A stretch of DNA of 64,000 nt from positions 62,001 to 126,000 of the forward strand of contig JAUIHI010000009.1 of the NCBI GenBank assembly GCA_030432295.1, written 5' to 3'. Each line of letters starts with the position of its first letter. The first letter of the stretch is position 1. Position numbers and translations under genes: made by a program. The stretch is from Anaerolineae bacterium (GTDB lineage Bacteria > Chloroflexota > Anaerolineae > Caldilineales > Caldilineaceae). Below are positions 12,990-62,417 of this stretch, one piece after another. The notes beneath the pieces were generated by a model, which saw only the letters and a program-made list of their open reading frames with translations, had not been told where the DNA came from and ran no database searches.

Positions 12990-12995
12990 TCGATA

Positions 12996-13068
12996 GTGGA
13001 CAGTAAACAGTAATCGGTTATCAGTGGATCGTTCGACACAAAATAACTAATTACTGTTCACTGTCTAC
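12996..13068. repeat. Imperfect palindrome after the binding-protein gene
   Basis: The arms ~12996-13021 and 13043-13068 (GACAGTAAACAGTAAT core) pair with about four mismatches. It is the first of two palindromes in the 155-bp gap between binding protein and permease. Confidence 0.75.
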
Positions 13069-13080
13069 TGATAACTTTGA

Positions 13081-26732: not shown

Positions 26733-26767
26733 CGGCTATCTCCTGGGGGAAAGGAAGAACAAGAATA

Positions 26768-26893
26768 GAACGCGGACGACGCGGATTTGGCTGATTTGCG
26801 CGGATTATTTTCTGGTTCGCAATAAATGTAAGATCGCACGCTGATTTTTGGATGAATCCGTGTGCATCCGCCCGATCCGTGTTATCCGCGTTC
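26768..26893. repeat. Imperfect long palindrome overlapping the sulfatase stop codon
   Basis: The arms ~26768-26805 and 26856-26893 (GAACGCGGA...GCGGAT) pair over 38 bases at roughly 70 percent. The right arm encodes the last residues and TAA of the sulfatase gene that ends at 26882. The sequence resembles the GCGGAT/GCAGAT units of 29389-29460 and 59584-59658. Confidence 0.65.
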
Positions 26894-28351
26894 CATCTGC
26901 TGTGCAAACCAGGCCACCCGTTCGGCTCGCTGGCGTTGCGCGTCGGGATCGGCGGGCCTGTAGACGTTTTCTCCGGCAATGATCGGCGCTGCTTCGTCCA
27001 GATGCACCGGGCTGGGCTGGTCGAACAACGCCCAGTCCAGCAGGCGATCTCGCAGGTCGGCAATCTCCACCTGACAGGCCGGATCGTGGAAGCGATTGTC
27101 CAGTTCCAGCGGATCACTTTGTAGATCGAAAAAGAGCGACTGGTCGGGGTACGCGGTCAGTAGCAGTTTGCGCGTCCGAGTGCGGGCCATATATTCGTGG
27201 CCCCCGCCTGACTCAGCGAAGATCACCTGTCGGTCGATGCCGTCGGTCAAGTCCGCGCCAGCCCAGCTTTTCGGCGCGTCACAGCCCGCCCAGCCCAGCA
27301 GCGTCGGCGCCACGTCCAGGCTGTTGACCAGTTCCTCCGACACCTCTCCCGCCCGTGCCTGTCCAGGAAACTTCACAATCAGCGGCACTTTGACCAGCGG
27401 GTCGTACATCCGGTTGCCTTTGAGCAGCAGGTGATGGAAGCCCAGATATTCGCCGTGATCGCTGTTGTAGACGACGAGGGTATTGTCATACAGCCCCTTC
27501 GCTTTGAGCAGATCGAGCATCCGCCCCACCTGAAAATCGATGTGGGAAATGGTGGCGTAGTAGTAGGCCATCACTCGGCGCAGGGCCGCTTCGGTCAGGG
27601 CGGTGTTGTCGAAATAGCCTGGGCGGAAAGCCAAATCAGCGGGCAGACAGGCGTCGGTCCAGCCGGGTAGGAGGGTCAGGGCGTCGGGATCGTACATCCG
27701 GCTCCAGGGCGCAGGCGGGTCGAATGGGTGATGTGGTTTGATGAAACTCGCCATCAGCAGGTGGCCGCCGTCGTCCCAACCGTTCAACCCCTCCAGCGCA
27801 CGGTCGCCGATCCACGTCGTCGAATGGTGGGCCTCGTCCAGGTCTGATTCCAGCGCGCCGAAATTCTGCCAGTAGTCGTCGGGCGCTTGCTGGCGAAACT
27901 CCCGCTCCTGGTCCACCAGATCGATCCGGTTTCCCAGTCCTTCAGCCCGCAGCCAGGCGTGATAGTCGTCCTCGTAACGGCCTGCTCCGTTCTGCTCGGC
28001 CAGTTGCATCCGCTCAAAGCCCACGTCCGCATAAGTCGGTGTGAAGTGCATTTTGCCCACCGCCGCGGTGCGATAGCCGCTGGCCCGCAACACTTTGGGA
28101 AAGGTGGGCAGCCCCGCGGGGATTGTGCAGTGGTTGCTGCCGCCCAGATGCTGGCGGGGATAGAGGCTGGTCAGGAAGGAGTAGCGGGAGGGGGTGCAGA
28201 CGGGATAGGGGCAGAAGCTGTTGTCATAGCGCACGCCATCCGCGGCCAGAGTGTCGATGTGGGGCGTGCGCACGTCCGGGTTACCGTACGCGCCGATGCA
28301 GTCCTGGCGGTGCTGGTCGGCCTGAATGATAAGAATATTGGGACGGGTCAT
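26882..28351 (-). CDS. Type I sulfatase
   Basis: A 489-residue sulfatase with RPNILIIQADQHRQDCIGAY at the start, formylglycine motif C52-T-P-S-R56, G-K-M-H-F-T-P and N-S-D-H-G-E-Y-L-G-F-H. It has no signal peptide. The ATG at 28351 is preferred over an in-frame TTG eight codons upstream, because the family normally begins within two residues of R-P-N-I-L. It lies between the lyase-like gene and the DUF6807 gene in the long minus-strand run, pointing to a sulfated, possibly pectin- or algal-type glycan. The C-terminus M-E-R-G comes from a repeat arm. Confidence 0.9.
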   Translation of the reverse strand: MTRPNILIIQADQHRQDCIGAYGNPDVRTPHIDTLAADGVRYDNSFCPYPVCTPSRYSFLTSLYPRQHLGGSNHCTIPAGLPTFPKVLRASGYRTAAVGKMHFTPTYADVGFERMQLAEQNGAGRYEDDYHAWLRAEGLGNRIDLVDQEREFRQQAPDDYWQNFGALESDLDEAHHSTTWIGDRALEGLNGWDDGGHLLMASFIKPHHPFDPPAPWSRMYDPDALTLLPGWTDACLPADLAFRPGYFDNTALTEAALRRVMAYYYATISHIDFQVGRMLDLLKAKGLYDNTLVVYNSDHGEYLGFHHLLLKGNRMYDPLVKVPLIVKFPGQARAGEVSEELVNSLDVAPTLLGWAGCDAPKSWAGADLTDGIDRQVIFAESGGGHEYMARTRTRKLLLTAYPDQSLFFDLQSDPLELDNRFHDPACQVEIADLRDRLLDWALFDQPSPVHLDEAAPIIAGENVYRPADPDAQRQRAERVAWFAQQMERG

Positions 28352-29388: not shown

Positions 29389-29460
29389 GGACGCAGATAA
29401 ACGCTGATAGACGCTGATCCAGAGACAAAAATCCGCGTGCATCTGCGTTTATCTGCGTCC
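29389..29460. repeat. Palindrome, GGACGCAGATAAACGC family
   Basis: The arms 29389-29418 and 29431-29460 pair over 30 bp with about five mismatches. It is the intergenic sibling of the element inserted in the U32 gene (59584-59658). Confidence 0.85.
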
Positions 29461-52840: not shown

Positions 52841-53356
52841 GTGGAGAACCCCCACCCCCGACCCCTCCCCCATTCTAGGGGAGGGGAGCTACACACCCAC
52901 GACCCTCTGCGACCCCACAGCCACGACCCCAACCCCGCGCCGCCTTCTGCAAGTCCCGATTTCGTTTTGGCTCTGCCCGACGGCAGTCAGCAGAGTGTGA
53001 CACCTGACGATTTGAGCCGCCTTCCCCAGACAACAGTGCCCAACTGCTATATTGTCAGCACTGGTCACGGCACATCCGGCCCTTTCGCTTTTACCGGTGT
53101 GACGCTGGCCGATTTTGTCGGCCATTACTGGACCAGCGAATGGGAACAGACAGAGGTCATCAGCGCCGACGGTTTTGGCGCTCGGCTTTCCGCATCAGAA
53201 GTCAACGGGACCACAGCACGTCCGGTTCTGCTGGCCTATGCAATTGACGGTCAGCCAATGGCACGCGCCGCCGGTCTTGTCCGGCTGATTGTTCCCAGCG
53301 AGACCGACGACGCGCTCAAGCAAGTGAAATGGGTGGGGGAGATACGAATTCTATGA
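52841..53356 (+). CDS. Molybdopterin-oxidoreductase-domain-like protein with repeat-encoded N-terminus
   Basis: A 171-residue protein starting at GTG. Residues ~41-171 resemble a compact sulfite-oxidase-type molybdopterin domain: D-F-V-L-A-L-P-D-G, V-P-N-C-Y-I-V-S-T-G-H-G, F-T-G-V-T-L-A-D-F, D-G-F-G-A-R-L-S and A-R-A-A-G-L-V-R-L-I-V-P. The Cys of the Mo site may be Cys70 in N-C-Y. The first ~40 residues are low-complexity and derive from a C/T-rich palindromic repeat (52862-52886, P-H-P-R-P-L-P-H-S-R-G-G-E). The real start of the ancestral gene may therefore lie inside. It overlaps hyuA by 4 bp. Confidence 0.65.
   Translation: MENPHPRPLPHSRGGELHTHDPLRPHSHDPNPAPPSASPDFVLALPDGSQQSVTPDDLSRLPQTTVPNCYIVSTGHGTSGPFAFTGVTLADFVGHYWTSEWEQTEVISADGFGARLSASEVNGTTARPVLLAYAIDGQPMARAAGLVRLIVPSETDDALKQVKWVGEIRIL
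52862..52886. repeat. C-rich palindrome inside the N-terminal coding region
   Basis: CCCCTCCCC (52862-52870) pairs with GGGGAGGGG (52878-52886). The peptide it encodes (P-R-P-L-P-H-S-R-G-G) is a familiar product of this repeat type in other genomes. The related, diverged element at 53491-53562 is inside hyuA. Confidence 0.75.
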
Positions 53357-55461
53357 AACTCATCGGCATTGACGTCGGCGGCACATTCACTGATTTTGTC
53401 CTGCTGGAAGACGGCCACATCCGTGTCCACAAATCCCCCACTACCCCGGACGACCAGAGCCGGGGGATCGTCGCTGGACTATCTGAACTTTCGTCCTTCC
53501 CTTCTCTCTCGGAAGCCCCTTCCCCCCTCTCCCAGAATGGGGGAGGGGTGGGGGGTGGGGGGCTAATAGTCCACGGCACGACAGCAGCCACGAATGCCCT
53601 CCTGGAACGCAAAGGCGCACGAACCGCTCTCCTTACCACTGCCGGTTTCGCCGATGTCATCGAAATCGGACGCCAGAATCGGCCCCATCTCTACGCCCTG
53701 CACCAGCAGCGCCCACCTCAATTGGTCCCCGCCGAACTGCGCTACGAAGCAGTCGAGCGCCTGGATGTGGATGGCAATTCACTCATCCCGCTGGACGAAG
53801 CCGCGCTGGAAGCGTTGGTCCGGCAGATGGCCGCGGCCCAGCCGGAAAGTGTGGCCGTCGTCTTTCTCTTCTCCTACCGCAACCCGGCCCACGAAGAGCG
53901 GGCCGCCGAAATTCTGCGCCGCCACCTGCCCGACGCCACCTTTTCCCTAAGCAGCCACATTCTGCCCGAATACCGGGAGTACGAGCGCACAGCCACGACT
54001 GTCGTCAACGCATACGTGCAACCCTTAGCCGAGCGCTATCTGCGCCGACTTTCCGCCGCGCTGGGCGGTATACCCATCCGGGTGATGCAGTCCAACGGCG
54101 GCGCGATTGGGATCGACCAGGCCAGCGCAGAACCGGCCCGCCTCGTCCTCAGCGGACCCGCGGGCGGCGTCGTCGGCGCGTTTGCAGCCGCTGCCCAGGC
54201 GATGGAAAGCGATGCACCCCACATCATCACCTTCGATATGGGCGGGACCAGCACGGATGTGGCCCTCTGCCCCGGCCAGATTCCCCGTACAGGCGAGAGC
54301 GAAATCGCGGGCCTGCCTCTGCGCCTGCCCGTCATCGACATCCACACTGTTGGCGCGGGAGGTGGCAGTCTGGCCACTGTGGACGCGGGGGGTGGGATGC
54401 GGGTGGGTCCACAAAGCGCGGGAGCAGTGCCCGGCCCGGTCTGCTATGGACGGGGCGGCACACAGGCGACTGTCACCGACGCCAATCTTGTGCTGGGGCG
54501 GCTGGATGGCGGCAATTTCTTGGGTGGAACCGGCGCTGTGGGCTTGGACGGGGAAGCAGCCCTGGCCGCGTTGACCCGCCTGGGAGACGAACTGGGCGGC
54601 TATTCGCCCCAGGAAGCCGCGCTCGGCGTCATCCGCATCGCCAACGCCACAATGGAACGCGCCCTGCGCCGGGTCTCTGTAGAGCGGGGCCACGACCCGC
54701 GCAACTTTGCCCTCATCCCTTTTGGCGGCGCGGGGCCGCTCCACGCCTGCGATCTGGCGAGCAGTCTGGGCGTACAGAAAATTCTGATTCCCCCCAGCCC
54801 CGGTGTACTCAGCGCGCTGGGGCTGCTGATGGCGGATGTGGTCCACGAAAATGCCCAGGCTATTCTGCGCGAGGCAGAGGAATTGGGTGCAAAGATCGAC
54901 TTTTTGGCCGCCCATTTCGAGCGCTTGGCCGAGCAGAGCCAGGCGGTTCTGACGGCAGAAGGGGTCACCGATCCTCGGCTGGATGGGGCGCTGGATATGC
55001 GCTACCGGGGACAGAGCTACGAATTGACTGTGCCGCTTGCCACGCCCATCAGCCGGGAAAGTCTGACGGATGCGGTGGCTGGGTTTCACACACTGCACGA
55101 GCAGCGCTACGGCTATGGGATGGCTGACGCAACCGTCGAAGTCGTCACCCTCCGTCTGCGGGGCAGCGGACCCGGCGCGCAGCCCGAATTTCAACGCCAG
55201 TCCCTGGGGCCGGCAGATGCGTCACCGGCCTTTTTGGGCGAAAAGCCCGTCTGGTTTCAGCCCGACAGCCCGACGCCCACCGCCACTTATGACCGCAGCC
55301 ACCTCACTCCCGGCAACCGCTTCACTGGCCCGGCTATCGTCTACCAATTCGACACCACAACCGTCATCCCCCCCGGCTGGGCCGCGCGGGTGGATGGGTG
55401 GGGGAATTTGTGGGTGGAGCAGCCAGCGACGGCGGACGGCGGACAGCAGACCCCGGGGTAG
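53353..55461 (+). CDS. Hydantoinase/oxoprolinase family subunit A (HyuA-like), with repeat insertion
   Basis: A 702-residue ATP-dependent amidohydrolase subunit of the N-methylhydantoinase/acetone-carboxylase A family. The nucleotide motif I-G-I-D-V-G-G-T-F-T-D lies at 4-14, and H-G-T-T-A-A-T-N-A-L begins at 74. It continues with F-D-M-G-G-T-S-T-D and G-G-G-S near 285-340, and the C-terminal D-T-T-x-V-I-P-P-G-W. Residues ~47-70 (SFPSLSEAPSPLSQN...GGGG) interrupt a normally short loop and come from a G/C-rich palindrome. The last ~11 residues are also repeat-derived. ATG 53353 overlaps the preceding stop. It pairs with hyuB after the S23-like gene. The substrate is unknown. Confidence 0.88.
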   Translation: MKLIGIDVGGTFTDFVLLEDGHIRVHKSPTTPDDQSRGIVAGLSELSSFPSLSEAPSPLSQNGGGVGGGGLIVHGTTAATNALLERKGARTALLTTAGFADVIEIGRQNRPHLYALHQQRPPQLVPAELRYEAVERLDVDGNSLIPLDEAALEALVRQMAAAQPESVAVVFLFSYRNPAHEERAAEILRRHLPDATFSLSSHILPEYREYERTATTVVNAYVQPLAERYLRRLSAALGGIPIRVMQSNGGAIGIDQASAEPARLVLSGPAGGVVGAFAAAAQAMESDAPHIITFDMGGTSTDVALCPGQIPRTGESEIAGLPLRLPVIDIHTVGAGGGSLATVDAGGGMRVGPQSAGAVPGPVCYGRGGTQATVTDANLVLGRLDGGNFLGGTGAVGLDGEAALAALTRLGDELGGYSPQEAALGVIRIANATMERALRRVSVERGHDPRNFALIPFGGAGPLHACDLASSLGVQKILIPPSPGVLSALGLLMADVVHENAQAILREAEELGAKIDFLAAHFERLAEQSQAVLTAEGVTDPRLDGALDMRYRGQSYELTVPLATPISRESLTDAVAGFHTLHEQRYGYGMADATVEVVTLRLRGSGPGAQPEFQRQSLGPADASPAFLGEKPVWFQPDSPTPTATYDRSHLTPGNRFTGPAIVYQFDTTTVIPPGWAARVDGWGNLWVEQPATADGGQQTPG
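53491..53562. repeat. In-frame palindromic insertion in hyuA
   Basis: A pyrimidine-rich block (CCCCCCTCTCCCA near 53523-53534) pairs with TGGGGGAGGGG (53538-53548). The 24 codons from 53491 to 53562 have no place in the conserved hydantoinase loop. It resembles 52862-52886. Confidence 0.7.
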
Positions 55462-55958
55462 GGCACATTCAATGGGTACAGGTGACAGAATGGCGTACAA
55501 ATTTGAGCAGTTGGATGTTTGGAAACTGGCGCTGGACTATATCGATCTCATTTATGCGTTGGCAAATGAGCTTCCCAAATCGGAAGAATACAATCTTAAA
55601 AGTCAACTCACCCGTGCTGCCACCAGTATTTCATTGAATGTCGCAGAAGGTTCGACCGGATTGAGCGACGCCGAACAATCGCGCTTTCTGAGCATTGCCA
55701 TCCGCTCGCTCATTGAGACGGTCGCCTGTCTGCACATCGTCCACCGGCGTGGCTATTTGGCTGATCCAGAACCCCTACGCGCCGCCTATCGAGCCAGCGA
55801 AATCCTCTTTGCGAAATTACAAGCCTTTCGCAAATCACTCAGTTTAGGACAACTGCATGAAGATTCTGCAGATTACCAGACCGATTTTTCCACTCCCTTT
55901 TAGATCGACAGATAGAGACACGCCACTTCCCGCTGTCTGCCGTCTGCGGTCCGCCGTC
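55428..55958. repeat. Inverted repeats flanking the S23-like gene
   Basis: The left arm 55428-55452 (GACGGCGGACGGCGGACAGC) and right arm 55932-55958 (ending GGTCCGCCGTC) are inverted relative to each other. They share an exact 10-bp end plus further matches. The gene at 55490-55903 is the only content between them. The left arm overlaps the last codons of hyuA, and the right arm is 19 bases before the hyuB ATG. Confidence 0.65.
55490..55903 (+). CDS. Four-helix-bundle protein (S23/IVP family)
   Basis: A 137-residue protein with the family phrases F-E-Q-L-D-V-W-K-L-A at the start, L-P-K-S-E-E-Y-N-L-K-S-Q-L-T-R-A-A-T-S-I-S-L-N-V-A-E-G in the middle and F-L-x-I-A-I-R-S-L-I-E-T near 80. Members are small four-helix bundles first found inside intervening sequences of 23S rRNA genes; their function is unclear. 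The start ATG at 55490 (MAYKFE) has AGGTGACAG upstream. The open frame to its left runs through hyuA in another frame and is not coding. It lies between hyuA and hyuB, flanked by inverted repeats, suggesting a mobile origin. Confidence 0.85.
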   Translation: MAYKFEQLDVWKLALDYIDLIYALANELPKSEEYNLKSQLTRAATSISLNVAEGSTGLSDAEQSRFLSIAIRSLIETVACLHIVHRRGYLADPEPLRAAYRASEILFAKLQAFRKSLSLGQLHEDSADYQTDFSTPF

Positions 55959-55977: not shown

Positions 55978-57600
<1,623 letters not shown>

Positions 57601-57601
57601 A

Positions 57602-57658
57602 GGTATTGGGTATTGGATATTAACGAGCGCACATCTCTAATATCCAATACCCAATACC
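57602..57658. repeat. Perfect palindrome, TATTGGGTATT family
   Basis: The arms 57602-57622 and 57638-57658 are exact over 21 bp. It lies between the convergent ends of hyuB and the aldo/keto reductase, and its core is shared with 1210-1282 and 10063-10132. Confidence 0.9.
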
Positions 57659-58713: not shown

Positions 58714-61260
58714 TCACGCCACGGCCAGGGGAATCTCCAGAAAGTTGGGCGGCACAAAGAGGCTGCCTTCGGTCACGCCAGATGGGACGAACCCGGCCAG
58801 TTTGCGGCTGAGTTGAGCGGTGGATTGCTCCCCGGCCAGTGTGGCGGCAAAGGCGCGAGTGATCTGCGCCACCTCTTCCCCACTCTCGTGGACAAATTCC
58901 AGCCGGTAGTGGCGGATGCCCCCGGCCAGCCAGCCGTCGAGAAAGTGGCTGGCTTCCTGGGCTTCGGCCCCAAAGACAGTATTGCGGCAGCCCACATCCG
59001 CCATCACCGGATGCACCCGGCCTTTCTCATCCCGCAGCCCCACCCGGTGCTCCTCGCAGGGATGACCGCAATCTTTATAGCTGGTCCCTGTGGAGAGGAA
59101 GCGGGCAAAGACGCAGTGCTCTGTGTGGAAGACGGGCAGGTGCTGATAGGCGATGACTTCCAATTTCTCTGGCCCCACCAGCCGGGCCATCTCGCCCACC
59201 TGGGCCGCGTTAAGGTCGTGGGTGGGGGTCAGCCGTTCCAGCCCCATCTCCAGAAAGAGGCGGGCGCTCAGTTCGTTGGCCGCGTTCAGGCTGAAGTCGC
59301 CGCTCAGGGATGGGTGTTCTTCTTCCTGCAGGGCGTGGAGCAGACCCGCCGAGCGCACGAGAATCGGCGCACCCAACCGGCGCAGAAAGTTGACGATGCG
59401 CTGCTCGTTGGGTTTCAACACCCGAGGCGATGCCACCCGCACGTCGATCCCCGCCGCCTGTACAGCTTCCACCGCCGGTCGCAACCCGTACAAATCCAGA
59501 TAATCCAGTGTAATACTGGCCGGGCGCACGTCCAGGGCCGCGGCCAACTGCTCCGGGGTGCGGACGAGGAGATGCAGAGAGGGCTGGACGCTGATAAACG
59601 CAGATGAACGCTGATTTTTATCTTCTATCTGCGTCAATCTGCGTTTATCAGCGTCCAGCATTTCTTGCGGGTTGTGGACGGGGCCAGCCGGCGGGCGGCT
59701 TTGCAGGGCAGAGAGCTGCTCTACAGCGTCCCGGCGCAGTTGGTTGAGCAGAGAGGCTGGGGCGAAGGGTTCGCCTTCCACATCGACGGTTAGCCTGCCC
59801 AGGCTGTAGGGCGTATTGCCCAGCCGCCCCAATTGAGCAGCCAGATATTCCTCGTCCAGCGCCCGATTCTGCGCGGGAGCCAGCGGCTCGGCAGAATGGA
59901 CAGTCACAGTCAGATCGGGGCGGGCGGGCAACGTCCAGCGGGTTTCCAGCCGTGCGCCGACGCGGGCTACCACCGCCACATCCAGCGGCTGTTTGTGAAT
60001 CGGCCCGGCGTTTTGGGTGAAGGGCCGGGCCGCTTTGTCCACCTCCGGGTCGTGGCTGCGCCAGAGCAGATCGCCCGCCCGGATGCGGCGGAAGTCCAGC
60101 GCGCCATTGCCAAAGCGAACCTCCACCTGTCCGCGCTTGCGGGGGACAATTTCGTAGACCCGTCCCCCCTCTTCCTGCTCCTGGGGGCTGCGCCAGTCCG
60201 CGGCGTCAAAGACTACCCCGTCGCCGGGCTTCAGCGGCGCAACCTCCGCCACCGACCCATCCGGCGCAAGCACAATCCCATCGCCCAGCACCTCTACCAC
60301 CCGACCCATCAGCACCCCCCGGTGGCGGGGTGCGCGTCCGTTGACGACTGTCTGGTGATTGGTCCCGCTGACAAAATGGGGGCCGAGACCCCTCGAGTAG
60401 ACCTGCTCCAGCCGCAATTCGTCGGCGGGGGTGATGGAGAGGGGCAGGCCCGCCCAGGCTTCGTCCACGGCCTGGCGATAAGCCGCGGTGGTCAGGGCCA
60501 CGTAGTCCGCGTCTTTATAGCGCCCTTCGATTTTGAGCGCGCTGACGCCCAGCTTCACAATCTCCGGTATCTGTTGCAGGGCGTAGAGATCACCGGGGGA
60601 GAGCAGGTAGCGGGCGTCGCCCAGAGGACGCAGGCTGCCGTCCACAATCAGTTCGTAGGGCAGACGGCAAGCCTGGGCGCACTGGCCCCGGTTGGCGCTG
60701 CGACCGCCCCAGGCTTCGGAGGAAAAGCATTGGCCCGAATAGGAGACGCAGAGCGCGCCGTGGACAAACATTTCCAGTTCGCAGTCGGTCTGGCCACGGA
60801 TGGCCCGGATGTCATCCAGCGACAGCTCTCTCGCCAGCACCACCCGGCTGACGCCGAAGTTGCGGGCCAGGGCGATCCCCTCGGCGCTGGTAATGCTCAT
60901 CTGTGTGCTGCCGTGGACTTCCATCCCCGGCGCGATCTGGCGGGCCAGCCGGGCCACGGCCACATCCTGCACAATCACCGCGTCGGCCCCGGCCTGGGCG
61001 ATCTGGGCCAGGGCATCCACCGCCGCGTCCATTTCGTGGTCAAAGACGAGGGTGTTGAAGGTGACGTAGCCGCGCACGCCCCGGCGATGGAGTGTCTCCA
61101 TCACAGACGGCAGTTCGTCCAGCACAAAGCCGACTTTGGCACGCGCGGTGAAGTGGGTCAGGCCAAAGTAGACTGCATCCGCGCCGGCTTCGATGGCCGC
61201 GTGGAGTTGGGGCCAATGGCCTGCGGGACTCATAATTTCGGGTTTCGGGTAGTTGATCAT
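58714..61260 (-). CDS. U32 peptidase family / RlhA-like 23S rRNA hydroxylase, repeat-interrupted
   Basis: An 848-residue protein of the U32 family with collagenase-like N-terminus (P-E-I-M-S-P-A-G, V-Y-F-G-L). Cys171, 178, 194 and 198 in F-V-H-G-A-L-C...R-G-Q-C-A-Q-A-C are the four U32 cysteines. A later DUF3656-like section and C-terminal repeat of the U32 part follow. Relatives (RlhA, YhbU, TrhP) hydroxylate cytidine 2501 of 23S rRNA or tRNA uridine rather than digest collagen. Residues ~535-559 (MLDADKRRLTQIEDKNQRSS...) are encoded by a palindrome of the GATAAACGCAGAT family. A -10 like TACAAT sits six bases before the ATG, so the message may be leaderless. Confidence 0.85.
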   Translation of the reverse strand: MINYPKPEIMSPAGHWPQLHAAIEAGADAVYFGLTHFTARAKVGFVLDELPSVMETLHRRGVRGYVTFNTLVFDHEMDAAVDALAQIAQAGADAVIVQDVAVARLARQIAPGMEVHGSTQMSITSAEGIALARNFGVSRVVLARELSLDDIRAIRGQTDCELEMFVHGALCVSYSGQCFSSEAWGGRSANRGQCAQACRLPYELIVDGSLRPLGDARYLLSPGDLYALQQIPEIVKLGVSALKIEGRYKDADYVALTTAAYRQAVDEAWAGLPLSITPADELRLEQVYSRGLGPHFVSGTNHQTVVNGRAPRHRGVLMGRVVEVLGDGIVLAPDGSVAEVAPLKPGDGVVFDAADWRSPQEQEEGGRVYEIVPRKRGQVEVRFGNGALDFRRIRAGDLLWRSHDPEVDKAARPFTQNAGPIHKQPLDVAVVARVGARLETRWTLPARPDLTVTVHSAEPLAPAQNRALDEEYLAAQLGRLGNTPYSLGRLTVDVEGEPFAPASLLNQLRRDAVEQLSALQSRPPAGPVHNPQEMLDADKRRLTQIEDKNQRSSAFISVQPSLHLLVRTPEQLAAALDVRPASITLDYLDLYGLRPAVEAVQAAGIDVRVASPRVLKPNEQRIVNFLRRLGAPILVRSAGLLHALQEEEHPSLSGDFSLNAANELSARLFLEMGLERLTPTHDLNAAQVGEMARLVGPEKLEVIAYQHLPVFHTEHCVFARFLSTGTSYKDCGHPCEEHRVGLRDEKGRVHPVMADVGCRNTVFGAEAQEASHFLDGWLAGGIRHYRLEFVHESGEEVAQITRAFAATLAGEQSTAQLSRKLAGFVPSGVTEGSLFVPPNFLEIPLAVA
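59584..59658. repeat. In-frame palindromic insertion in the U32 gene
   Basis: The arms 59584-59615 and 59627-59658 pair over 32 bp with about four mismatches. The 75-bp element equals 25 codons and is the coding sibling of intergenic 29389-29460. Confidence 0.88.
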
Positions 61261-61409: not shown

Positions 61410-62417
61410 ATGGAATTGGTAAGTCGTCGTCCATTCAAAAGAGTTGGTCTTTTGCTGCTGATGGGTGTCGCCCTGTTGTTGGTGATAAGCGCGTGCGCTG
61501 CCCCAGCTGCGGCCCCGGCTGCCGAACCTCAAGCCGTGGCAGAGACCCCCGTCCCTGTCGCCGAACCGACAGAAGCTCCGGAGGCAGAACCGACCGCGGT
61601 TCCCGAACCAGAACCCACCGCGATTCCAGAAGCGGAGCCGACTGCAGCGCCTGAACCGGAAACATCTGCAGGTGATCCAGTGGCCGGGGAATATATCCTT
61701 AGCGCGGCCATCGGCTGTGGCTGCCATTTCAACAGGGACGCGGGTGGTCTGGCCGGTGGCAACAAATTTGAAGGTGGTTTCGGTCTGGTCTACTCGCGCA
61801 ATCTGACCCAGGATGTAACGGGCATTGCTGGCTTGAACGATCAGGAAATTATCGATGCCTTCCGGCTGGGCAAACGGCCTGGCGGCGGCAATCTGGCAGT
61901 GGTTATGCCCCGCTTTGCGTCGATGTCTGATGAGGATGCGCTGAATTTGGTCGCCTATTTGCGCAGTCGGCCCGCTCTGGCCAATGAAGTAGCCGATCCC
62001 CAATTGACCAGCGAACCGGCTGACTTCACGCCGAATCAGCCACCCCCCGCGGTGGCCCCGACCGAAGGCGCGGCCCGAGGCGGCTATCTGGCCGCGCTTG
62101 CCCGCTGTGGCAATTGTCACACCCCGCGCACCGAAACCGGTGGCTTCAACAACGATCTTTTCCTGGCTGGCGCGCCCTATCAGGACACAGTGGCCCCCAA
62201 TCTGACGCCGGATGAGGCGACCGGGTTGACCTGGACTGAGCAGGAGATTGCCGATTTCCTGGGGACGGGTATCTATTCCGATGGACTGGAAGCCCACGCC
62301 GGGATGAAAGGCACAGTCGATCGGGGCCTGGGCAAGCTGACAGAAGCGGATCGGCTGGCGATTGCCGCCTTCCTGAAGACACTGTCACCGATTCAAAACG
62401 CACCGGCAGCCCAATAG
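61410..62417 (+). CDS. Di-haem-type cytochrome c lipoprotein with one atypical haem motif
   Basis: A 335-residue exported protein. The lipobox V-I-S-A-C gives Cys29 as lipid anchor, then a Pro/Glu/Ala linker with E-P-T-A-x-P repeats (~48-85). Two cytochrome c domains follow. The second has a normal C233-G-N-C-H237 site, but the first reads C103-G-C-H106 (C-x-C-H), one residue short. Likely Met ligands are in V-V-M-P-R-F and A-G-M-K-G. It probably passes electrons at the outer membrane face, for example between a dehydrogenase and oxidase. AAGGAGAAGAGCA precedes the ATG. Confidence 0.85.
   Translation: MELVSRRPFKRVGLLLLMGVALLLVISACAAPAAAPAAEPQAVAETPVPVAEPTEAPEAEPTAVPEPEPTAIPEAEPTAAPEPETSAGDPVAGEYILSAAIGCGCHFNRDAGGLAGGNKFEGGFGLVYSRNLTQDVTGIAGLNDQEIIDAFRLGKRPGGGNLAVVMPRFASMSDEDALNLVAYLRSRPALANEVADPQLTSEPADFTPNQPPPAVAPTEGAARGGYLAALARCGNCHTPRTETGGFNNDLFLAGAPYQDTVAPNLTPDEATGLTWTEQEIADFLGTGIYSDGLEAHAGMKGTVDRGLGKLTEADRLAIAAFLKTLSPIQNAPAAQ

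Follow-up and report, generated by a model that had tools for sequence, protein, structure and literature searches.

Why does a small gene of the S23/IVP family, enclosed by inverted repeats, stand in the middle of a protein operon? The question is raised by a 64,000-nucleotide stretch of DNA from an Anaerolineae bacterium of the Caldilineaceae (positions 62,001 to 126,000 of contig JAUIHI010000009.1, assembly GCA_030432295.1), called here the window, in which such a gene separates hyuA from hyuB. The original prediction, made from the letters alone, was that of a mobile unit resembling the intervening sequences (IVSs) of 23S rRNA and acting outside rRNA. The mobility of the unit is well supported by the comparisons reported below, and the feature is probably a member of a family of small mobile units, REPIN/RAYT-like in their logic, whose IVP protein acts on its own arms.

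The operon begins with hyuA (53353-55461, forward strand), which encodes a hydantoinase/oxoprolinase A protein of the caprolactamase-alpha-like type (Pfam PF05378, PF01968 and PF19278), and continues with hyuB (55978-57600, forward strand), which encodes the B protein (PF02538, E 1.6e-208). Between them lies the cargo of the unit, an S23/IVP gene for a protein of 137 amino acids (55490-55903, forward strand; ATG at 55490, stop at 55901-55903). It matches PF05635 and TIGR02436, both with E 2e-26, and its scores are 92.7 bits with the Pfam profile (cut-off 33.8) and 92.3 with the NCBIfam profile (cut-off 24). An inverted-repeat search places the left arm at 55428-55457 (forward strand) and the right arm at 55929-55958 (reverse strand), hyuB starting 20 nucleotides beyond the latter. 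The left arm consists of the tandem heptads GACGGCG, GACGGCG and GACAGCA followed by GAC. The right arm carries the same heptads on the complementary strand, and the purine-rich strand of the arms is oriented inward.

The two arms, of 30 nucleotides each, are 83% complementary and are separated by 471 nucleotides. Their 25 complementary positions out of 30 were reached by one pair among 5.0 million 30-nucleotide pairs of similar spacing tested over 464 kb of the window genome; such a near-unique pair is not due to chance. The predicted duplex between the arms has an energy of -52.3 kcal/mol; when one arm is shuffled, the mean is -29.4 (sd 4.1). These background comparisons exclude a chance origin of the arms. 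The profile matches and the complementarity of the arms thus confirm that an S23/IVP gene within inverted repeats parts hyuA from hyuB, as first described. The heptad make-up of the arms and the gene-less hairpins scattered through the window had been missed.

The unit has altered its upstream neighbour. The last codons of hyuA lie in the left arm and its stop codon falls within the arm region, so that the C-terminus of the window HyuA (..WVEQPATADGGQQTPG before the stop) is largely arm-encoded, whereas relatives lacking the insert end in ..WVEKN or ..WVEKE. The claim that the left repeat replaces the end of HyuA therefore holds. Arms often provide a stop codon or a short tail to the gene upstream, as seen here and also for pth and for the gene upstream of a further unit discussed below (L018 and L024, respectively). 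Palindromic repeats are also present inside the reading frames of hyuA (53503-53565) and hyuB (56303-56365), where they add in-frame residues (SPLSQNGGGVGGG.. and GARGETDSSQPAPRLS..); the one inside hyuA is found again, inverted, at 52849-52886.

The two partner genes had been supposed to be normally adjacent, and relatives without the insert were found. In two other members of the genus (G003 and G006) hyuA and hyuB overlap or touch, the hyuB ATG lying over the hyuA stop codon (TAATGG), and in four outgroups (G037, G031, G033 and G036) they stand from a few to about 40 nucleotides apart with no insert. Because of these empty sites we consider the adjacency of the two genes to be ancestral. 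The HyuA protein of G003 is 90% identical to that of the window, and G003 is the sister of the window genome (G000) in the HyuA tree (SH-aLRT 91). Arms are present at the junction in G000, G002 and G005. In G002 other hairpins have overwritten the truncated IVP gene and the outer arms are kept; in G005 the left arm is enlarged to about a dozen units. At this junction relatives thus show either the gene with its arms or no insert at all, and none was found to keep the gene between hyuA and hyuB without the repeats. The unit would have entered the junction in an ancestor of the window genus, leaving an arm that now forms the C-terminus of HyuA; either the unit inserted once and was later lost precisely from G003 and G006, or it inserted repeatedly. 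The site in the window is too diverged for a target duplication to be read. In a genus of the same family (g3), two loci (L330 and L333) have hyuA and hyuB separated by an unrelated membrane-protein-like gene, and the junction is not strictly conserved across the family.

Is the arrangement peculiar to this operon? The window genome (6.7 Mb in 61 contigs, completeness 100%) contains nine PF05635 genes, and the repeat-gene-repeat unit recurs clearly in eight of them, with arm scores of 31-62 compared with a background median of 17 and a 99th percentile of 25-27.5. The ninth (L009) has weak GAGCGNN arms, seen by eye. The words of these genes are separate: GGGGATT, TTGATTGG, GACGGCG, GACGACG, AAGGCAA, GGGGCGA, GTGCTGC and GAATGCG. 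The general layout would be an inverted arm of 2-12 tandem units of 7, sometimes 8, nucleotides, the S23/IVP gene and a second inverted arm, making about 400-550 nucleotides in all.

More widely, non-redundant IVP genes were taken from the genus, the family and 42 named contigs. Of these 134 genes, 93 have an arm score of at least 26 (the thresholds are our own choice), a level reached by 11 of 1800 random positions. The same level is reached by 45 of 54 further IVP genes, a few of which repeat earlier loci (mainly from Patescibacteria, but also from Acidobacteriota, Planctomycetota and others). These locus sets are biased: they comprise best-scoring matches, over-represent the window clade and retain a few duplicates (L033/L036 and L062/L270). 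On cyanobacterial plasmids inverted arms were present at all 11 IVP genes inspected; only 2 of 84 other coding sequences on two annotated plasmid segments score at least 26, and arms can thus be rejected as a common trait of any small gene. Armed IVP genes occur in Chloroflexota, Cyanobacteria, Patescibacteria, Acidobacteriota, Elusimicrobia and Planctomycetota. The unit length is 7 nucleotides in most lineages and 8 in the relatives from Melainabacteria, Endomicrobium and Elusimicrobia. In Patescibacteria (the phylum of locus L075) IVP genes were found in 161 of 287 genomes sampled, and a genome of roughly 1 Mb can hold as many as 13 of them. Of two armed genes on cyanobacterial plasmids (L225 and L226), one parts cmr2 from cmr3 and the other cas6 from cas4. 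IVP open reading frames (ORFs) have been described in the cmr3-cmr2 interval and in the vicinity of other cas genes (PMC3936711), and it is because armed units sit among cmr and cas genes that IVP has been reported as a CRISPR-associated gene. Proteins of about 548 amino acids with an N-terminal IVP-like domain, and with CGCGGAT-type repeats past the stop codon, are encoded at three other loci (L107, L109 and L114) and possibly represent a domesticated or fused form.

The word of the arms follows the protein. Neighbours in the IVP protein tree have a common heptad word, and the close relatives of the window protein (in Chloroflexota, Planctomycetota and Acidobacteriota) have heptads of the form GAC-S-R-N-N: among 103 units in which GAC is fixed by definition, position 4 is G or C in 97 and position 5 is G or A in 101. 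The comparison was confined to pairs at different insertion sites, without homologous flanks and with a protein distance below 0.9. Mean arm similarity was 19.2, compared with 11.2 after permutation (sd 0.55; maximum 13.25 in 2000 permutations), and with reversed polarity it was 7-9 throughout, which is the noise level. Both the word and its direction, beyond composition, therefore go with the protein. Vertical inheritance as the sole cause is rejected, since the signal persists without pairs that have homologous flanks. Base composition is rejected by the noise level of the reversed polarity, host composition being only partly modelled. It had been asked whether the arms might be chance copies of a common intergenic repeat; they do belong to a common class, but their word matches the protein clade. 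Each IVP clade has its own word and no terminal sequence is common to the arms of all clades.

Direct evidence of movement comes from several sites. The unit between pth and mfd in G003 (L018) and the unit beside solA in G005 (L024) are 85% identical over 454 nucleotides; the homology begins in the left arm and ends in the right arm, with no similarity outside. The mfd site contains gene-less hairpins in other species. The solA site is empty in G000, and in G001 and G006 it is occupied by gene-less heptad hairpins. A second case is provided by conjugative cyanobacterial plasmids. In Trichormus variabilis and Scytonema NIES-4073 the VirB10 operon carries the unit; the unit is absent from this operon in Nostoc linckia, Tolypothrix and four more plasmids, which are about 97.5% identical to the filled ones (97.6% for those of Nostoc linckia and Tolypothrix). 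The filled junctions read AAAA-GTAAT-[423 nt]-GTAAT-TAACAAATAAATATG and the empty one AAAAGTAATTAACAAATAAATATG, revealing a 5-bp target duplication (GTAAT). One filled copy differs from the other by exactly 14 nucleotides, that is, two heptads, and Nostoc C052 has a decayed copy that has lost its 3' half, apparently by a microhomology deletion. Presence or absence of the unit was also seen at two further polymorphic sites (L233 and L232). When 50-kb plasmid segments were compared for insertions or deletions of gene-less hairpins, the IVP unit and one unrelated 94-nucleotide difference were found and nothing else. Gene and arms move jointly, the boundaries are at the arms, and insertion is clean and, as a rule, between operon genes. 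This last preference probably reflects selection, insertions being tolerated at such positions. The mobile part of the original prediction stands on the empty sites, on L018 and L024, on the plasmids and on the clade-tracking arms, while the IVS-like part extends to the protein family and the terminal inverted repeats only.

Gene-less hairpins accompany the units. In 464 kb of the window genome we found 100 short hairpins, 29 of them with heptad arms, and none in a shuffled window. A period of 7 is the most frequent of any tested for tandem arrays (50 arrays in the same 464 kb). The arms of the gene-less hairpins resemble those of the units resident in G000, with a mean score of 23.3 compared with 13.2 for shuffled arms, and 13 of the 29 score at least 24. 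Three match a unit present only in sister species. Examples in the window include a GGGGATT/GATATTG hairpin at 1206-1279, which is close to the arms of the resident unit L001 (score 33), a AGTGGACAGTAAACAGTAATC hairpin at 12995-13069, which matches the arms of the sister-species unit L022 and of no resident unit, and a hairpin just past hyuB at 57602-57658 (GGTATTGGGTATTGGATATTA, 15-nucleotide loop), whose arms are 100% complementary. Hairpin density was estimated from stretches of 54-464 kb in seven genomes. It tends to be higher in genomes with IVP genes (21.6 per 100 kb in G000, 11.5 in G002, 28.0 in G037 and 38.3 in G029) than in family members that lack them (1.0 in G026, 5.6 in G007 and 1.6 in G036, with 1, 0 and 0 heptad hairpins, respectively).

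Could the hairpins have come first? Heptad hairpins formed as slippage products, terminators or regulatory elements might act as hot spots at which IVP genes arrive by homologous recombination, the arms then being landing sites. This would agree with the gene-less hairpins found at the same sites in sister species and with the flavours common to gene-bearing and gene-less forms. We nevertheless regard it as very unlikely in view of the clean empty sites that contain no hairpin (hyuAB in G003 and G006, solA in G000 and the VirB10 operon of six plasmids), of the near absence of hairpins from genomes without IVP genes, and of the homology between moved copies, which spans both arms.

A second possibility is that the unit is a non-autonomous miniature inverted-repeat transposable element (MITE), its arms recognised by an ordinary DNA transposase encoded elsewhere and the IVP gene a mere passenger. 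Within the unit there is no gene for a transposase, integrase or reverse transcriptase, the search of the remainder of the genome for a parent transposase not having been systematic. A MITE would likewise show terminal inverted repeats, numerous copies without a gene and a target duplication like the 5-bp one on the plasmids. The diversity of the arms, which differ in word from one IVP clade to the next and end in no common sequence, would be difficult to accommodate: each of dozens of flavours would need a separate transposase that always tracked the IVP protein, and a single gene family would have to be the cargo in all six phyla listed above. We therefore judge this explanation improbable.

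What, then, could the IVP protein contribute? Its AlphaFold model is a confident four-helix bundle (pLDDT 90.4). The closest structure is Xcc0516 of Xanthomonas campestris (2gsc; Z 19.9, root mean square deviation 1.1 over 117 residues), whose title, as cited in PMC3936711, calls it a pentamer of four-helix bundles. Further matches are BT_0352 (2rld, Z 16.4) and the Avd protein of diversity-generating retroelements (DGRs; 8ub7 and 4dwl, Z about 14). Helical bundles that matched at Z 9-12, pectin methylesterase inhibitors among them, were disregarded as generic. The protein matches no catalytic family, its sole Pfam match being 23S_rRNA_IVP.

The resemblance to Avd, a partner of reverse transcriptase and RNA, suggests mobility at the RNA level, in which a hairpin transcript bound by an Avd-like protein would be copied back by a reverse transcriptase related to those of DGRs or group II introns. 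The unit has an unusually stable predicted fold as RNA (z -3.97), the IVSs of 23S rRNA are removed from RNA by RNase III (PMC4990558), and reverse transcriptases of group II introns lie near the unit on two plasmids. A profile search, however, detected no RVT_1 protein in the window genome or in G029, both of which are rich in units and hairpins, so that the units can at least persist where no reverse transcriptase is resident, and a reverse transcriptase partner was rejected on these grounds. Moreover, two very divergent IVP genes that do lie a few hundred bases from RVT_1 matches (L118, G006:C216:10687-10998; L119, G006:C40:14966-15265) have no arms and are probably genuine DGR Avd genes. 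RNA-level mobility thus seems unlikely to us. The seemingly armless IVP clade of genus g3 was also considered as a candidate Avd, which was unsupported by the neighbouring ORFs (viewed by eye); it has heptads in direct orientation.

We return to the preferred explanation, a mobile unit whose protein acts on its own arms. Its chemistry of movement, including the role of the protein, is something we infer. The IVP protein, which forms a small oligomeric helical barrel with the Avd/Xcc0516 fold, would recognise the word of its own arms when these are folded as a hairpin. Replication or repair enzymes of the host would make a staggered cut and fill it in, and together with them the protein would promote the insertion of a copy. 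Gene-less hairpins would be served in trans, as REPINs are by RAYT. The arms change by whole units, gained or lost, and would also change through copying of one arm from the other. Given the lack of a reverse transcriptase and the presence of a target duplication, we tentatively prefer a DNA hairpin as intermediate.

A number of points weigh against this explanation. The family has no known catalytic activity, and the protein could be mere cargo, act as a regulator or serve as an RNA chaperone. GTATTGG, the most abundant gene-less type in G000, lacks a close counterpart with the gene in the set of fetched loci, and the hairpin densities are a correlation over few genomes and represent a trend rather than a census. 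GTAAT is the sole unambiguous target duplication: the TTCTA at L233 may belong to the arm, and the L232 site lost about 40 nucleotides of target. Approximately a third of the IVP genes surveyed fall below the threshold when short flanks are used, several being armed farther out and others not. Finally, in the clade of genus g3 mentioned above (L120-L126 and L142-L144) the heptads (CAGTGGT) are direct and not inverted.

Genes of another family show a similar arrangement. GxxExxY genes (PF13366, PDDEXK_3; L205-L223) of the same genus also lie between inverted arms, in this case of units of about 10 nucleotides (for example, ACGCNGATnn), and 13 of 20 such loci score at least 37 compared with 3 of 1800 random positions. 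One such gene, with its arms, is located directly upstream of hyuA in G006 (G006:C29:9432-9785), where the hyuA-hyuB junction is empty. Gene-less hairpins of the GxxExxY arm type are found in the window at 26765-26896, 29389-29460 and 59583-59659.

Common small proteins that lack an assigned function include those of the S23/IVP family, and heptad repeats have no known agent of spread; linking the two would give each an explanation. More widely, and more tentatively, S23/IVP genes with heptad arms may be widespread transposable elements without transposase, reverse transcriptase or integrase, in which a non-enzymatic protein recognises clade-specific hairpins and hijacks host enzymes. These elements might then have given rise to the orphan heptanucleotide repeats seen in cyanobacteria, Xanthomonas and other bacteria, rRNA IVSs might be copies that landed in rRNA, and GxxExxY genes might represent the same architecture with units of about 10 nucleotides. 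If true, this would define a mobile element with no known transposase, whose recognition sequence changes with its protein, and would provide a natural set of protein-nucleic-acid specificity pairs. It would also account for the presence of such genes inside operons (hyuAB, cmr2-cmr3, cas6-cas4 and VirB10).

How does the unit compare with known systems? The nearest by protein family are the IVSs of 23S rRNA in Leptospira and Coxiella, which carry an S23 ORF (PF05635/TIGR02436) and terminal inverted repeats able to form a stem, measure about 400-500 nucleotides and have been proposed, though not shown, to be mobile or to be transposon remnants (PMC4990558). IVP ORFs have also been reported in 16S and 23S insertions of bacteria of the Candidate Phyla Radiation (PMC11270868). 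Unlike these IVSs, the window unit lies between protein genes, has clade-specific tandem 7-mers and abundant gene-less forms, and belongs to a family with documented insertion polymorphism. A genuine IVS might have escaped from rRNA and still be excised from transcripts by RNase III: protein family and terminal stem are the same, and the 28-bp stem of the Coxiella IVS is cut by that enzyme (PMC4990558). However, no related locus was inside rRNA among 60 scanned with Rfam, nor among the loci fetched in a search that took in 300 Patescibacteria genomes, an absence that in such a sample proves nothing. The clade-wide presence of the unit between protein genes suggests that rRNA is one of many landing places, and we consider an escape from rRNA extremely unlikely. 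The link between the unit and rRNA IVSs is unproven.

With REPIN/RAYT (PMC3116915) the unit shares inverted pairs of short repeats, many gene-less copies, a repeat-flanked gene and a repeat type that follows the protein clade. RAYT, however, is a Y1 HUH nuclease and REPs are single palindromes, whereas IVP is a four-helix bundle without a known catalytic site and its arms are tandem heptads. The unit is not a member of that system because its gene encodes no Y1 transposase (a single Pfam match, 23S_rRNA_IVP, and an all-helical fold). DGR Avd proteins are similar in fold and have PF05635-like sequence (PMC10053308), but they differ in that no reverse transcriptase accompanies the window unit, either in the unit or in its genome (template and variable repeats were not searched for), and that the two probable true Avd genes are armless. 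MITEs are likewise small, with terminal inverted repeats and many gene-less copies, and they have a short target duplication, which for the unit is clear at one insertion; they differ from the unit in that no parent transposase was recognised for it, in the absence of a systematic search, and that its arms have no common terminal sequence.

The last comparison concerns the heptanucleotide repeats themselves. Short tandemly repeated repetitive (STRR) sequences with seven-letter units have been reported from cyanobacteria since about 1990. The GGGAATC repeats of Xanthomonas and GGGGATT repeats of Nostoc have been studied as quadruplex formers and are said not to be generally tied to mobile elements (Rehm et al., PMC4692102); there are 70-75 convergent heptad pairs per Xanthomonas genome (PMC4692102). 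For the TAACTGA repeats of the giant sulfur bacteria (Beggiatoaceae) no mechanism of transfer was given (PMC4679880). In the open-licence literature we found no report of the arms or of IVP genes joined to heptad repeats, and priority is therefore uncertain. Such repeats are described as orphans, with no link to an IVP gene in PMC4692102 or PMC4679880. Like the arms described here, they are intergenic tandem 7-mers, often in inverted pairs, and the words GGGGATT, GGGAGTA and GGGAACA also flank IVP genes in our loci. The association of IVP genes with heptads offers a source for the orphan heptad repeats of cyanobacteria and Xanthomonas.

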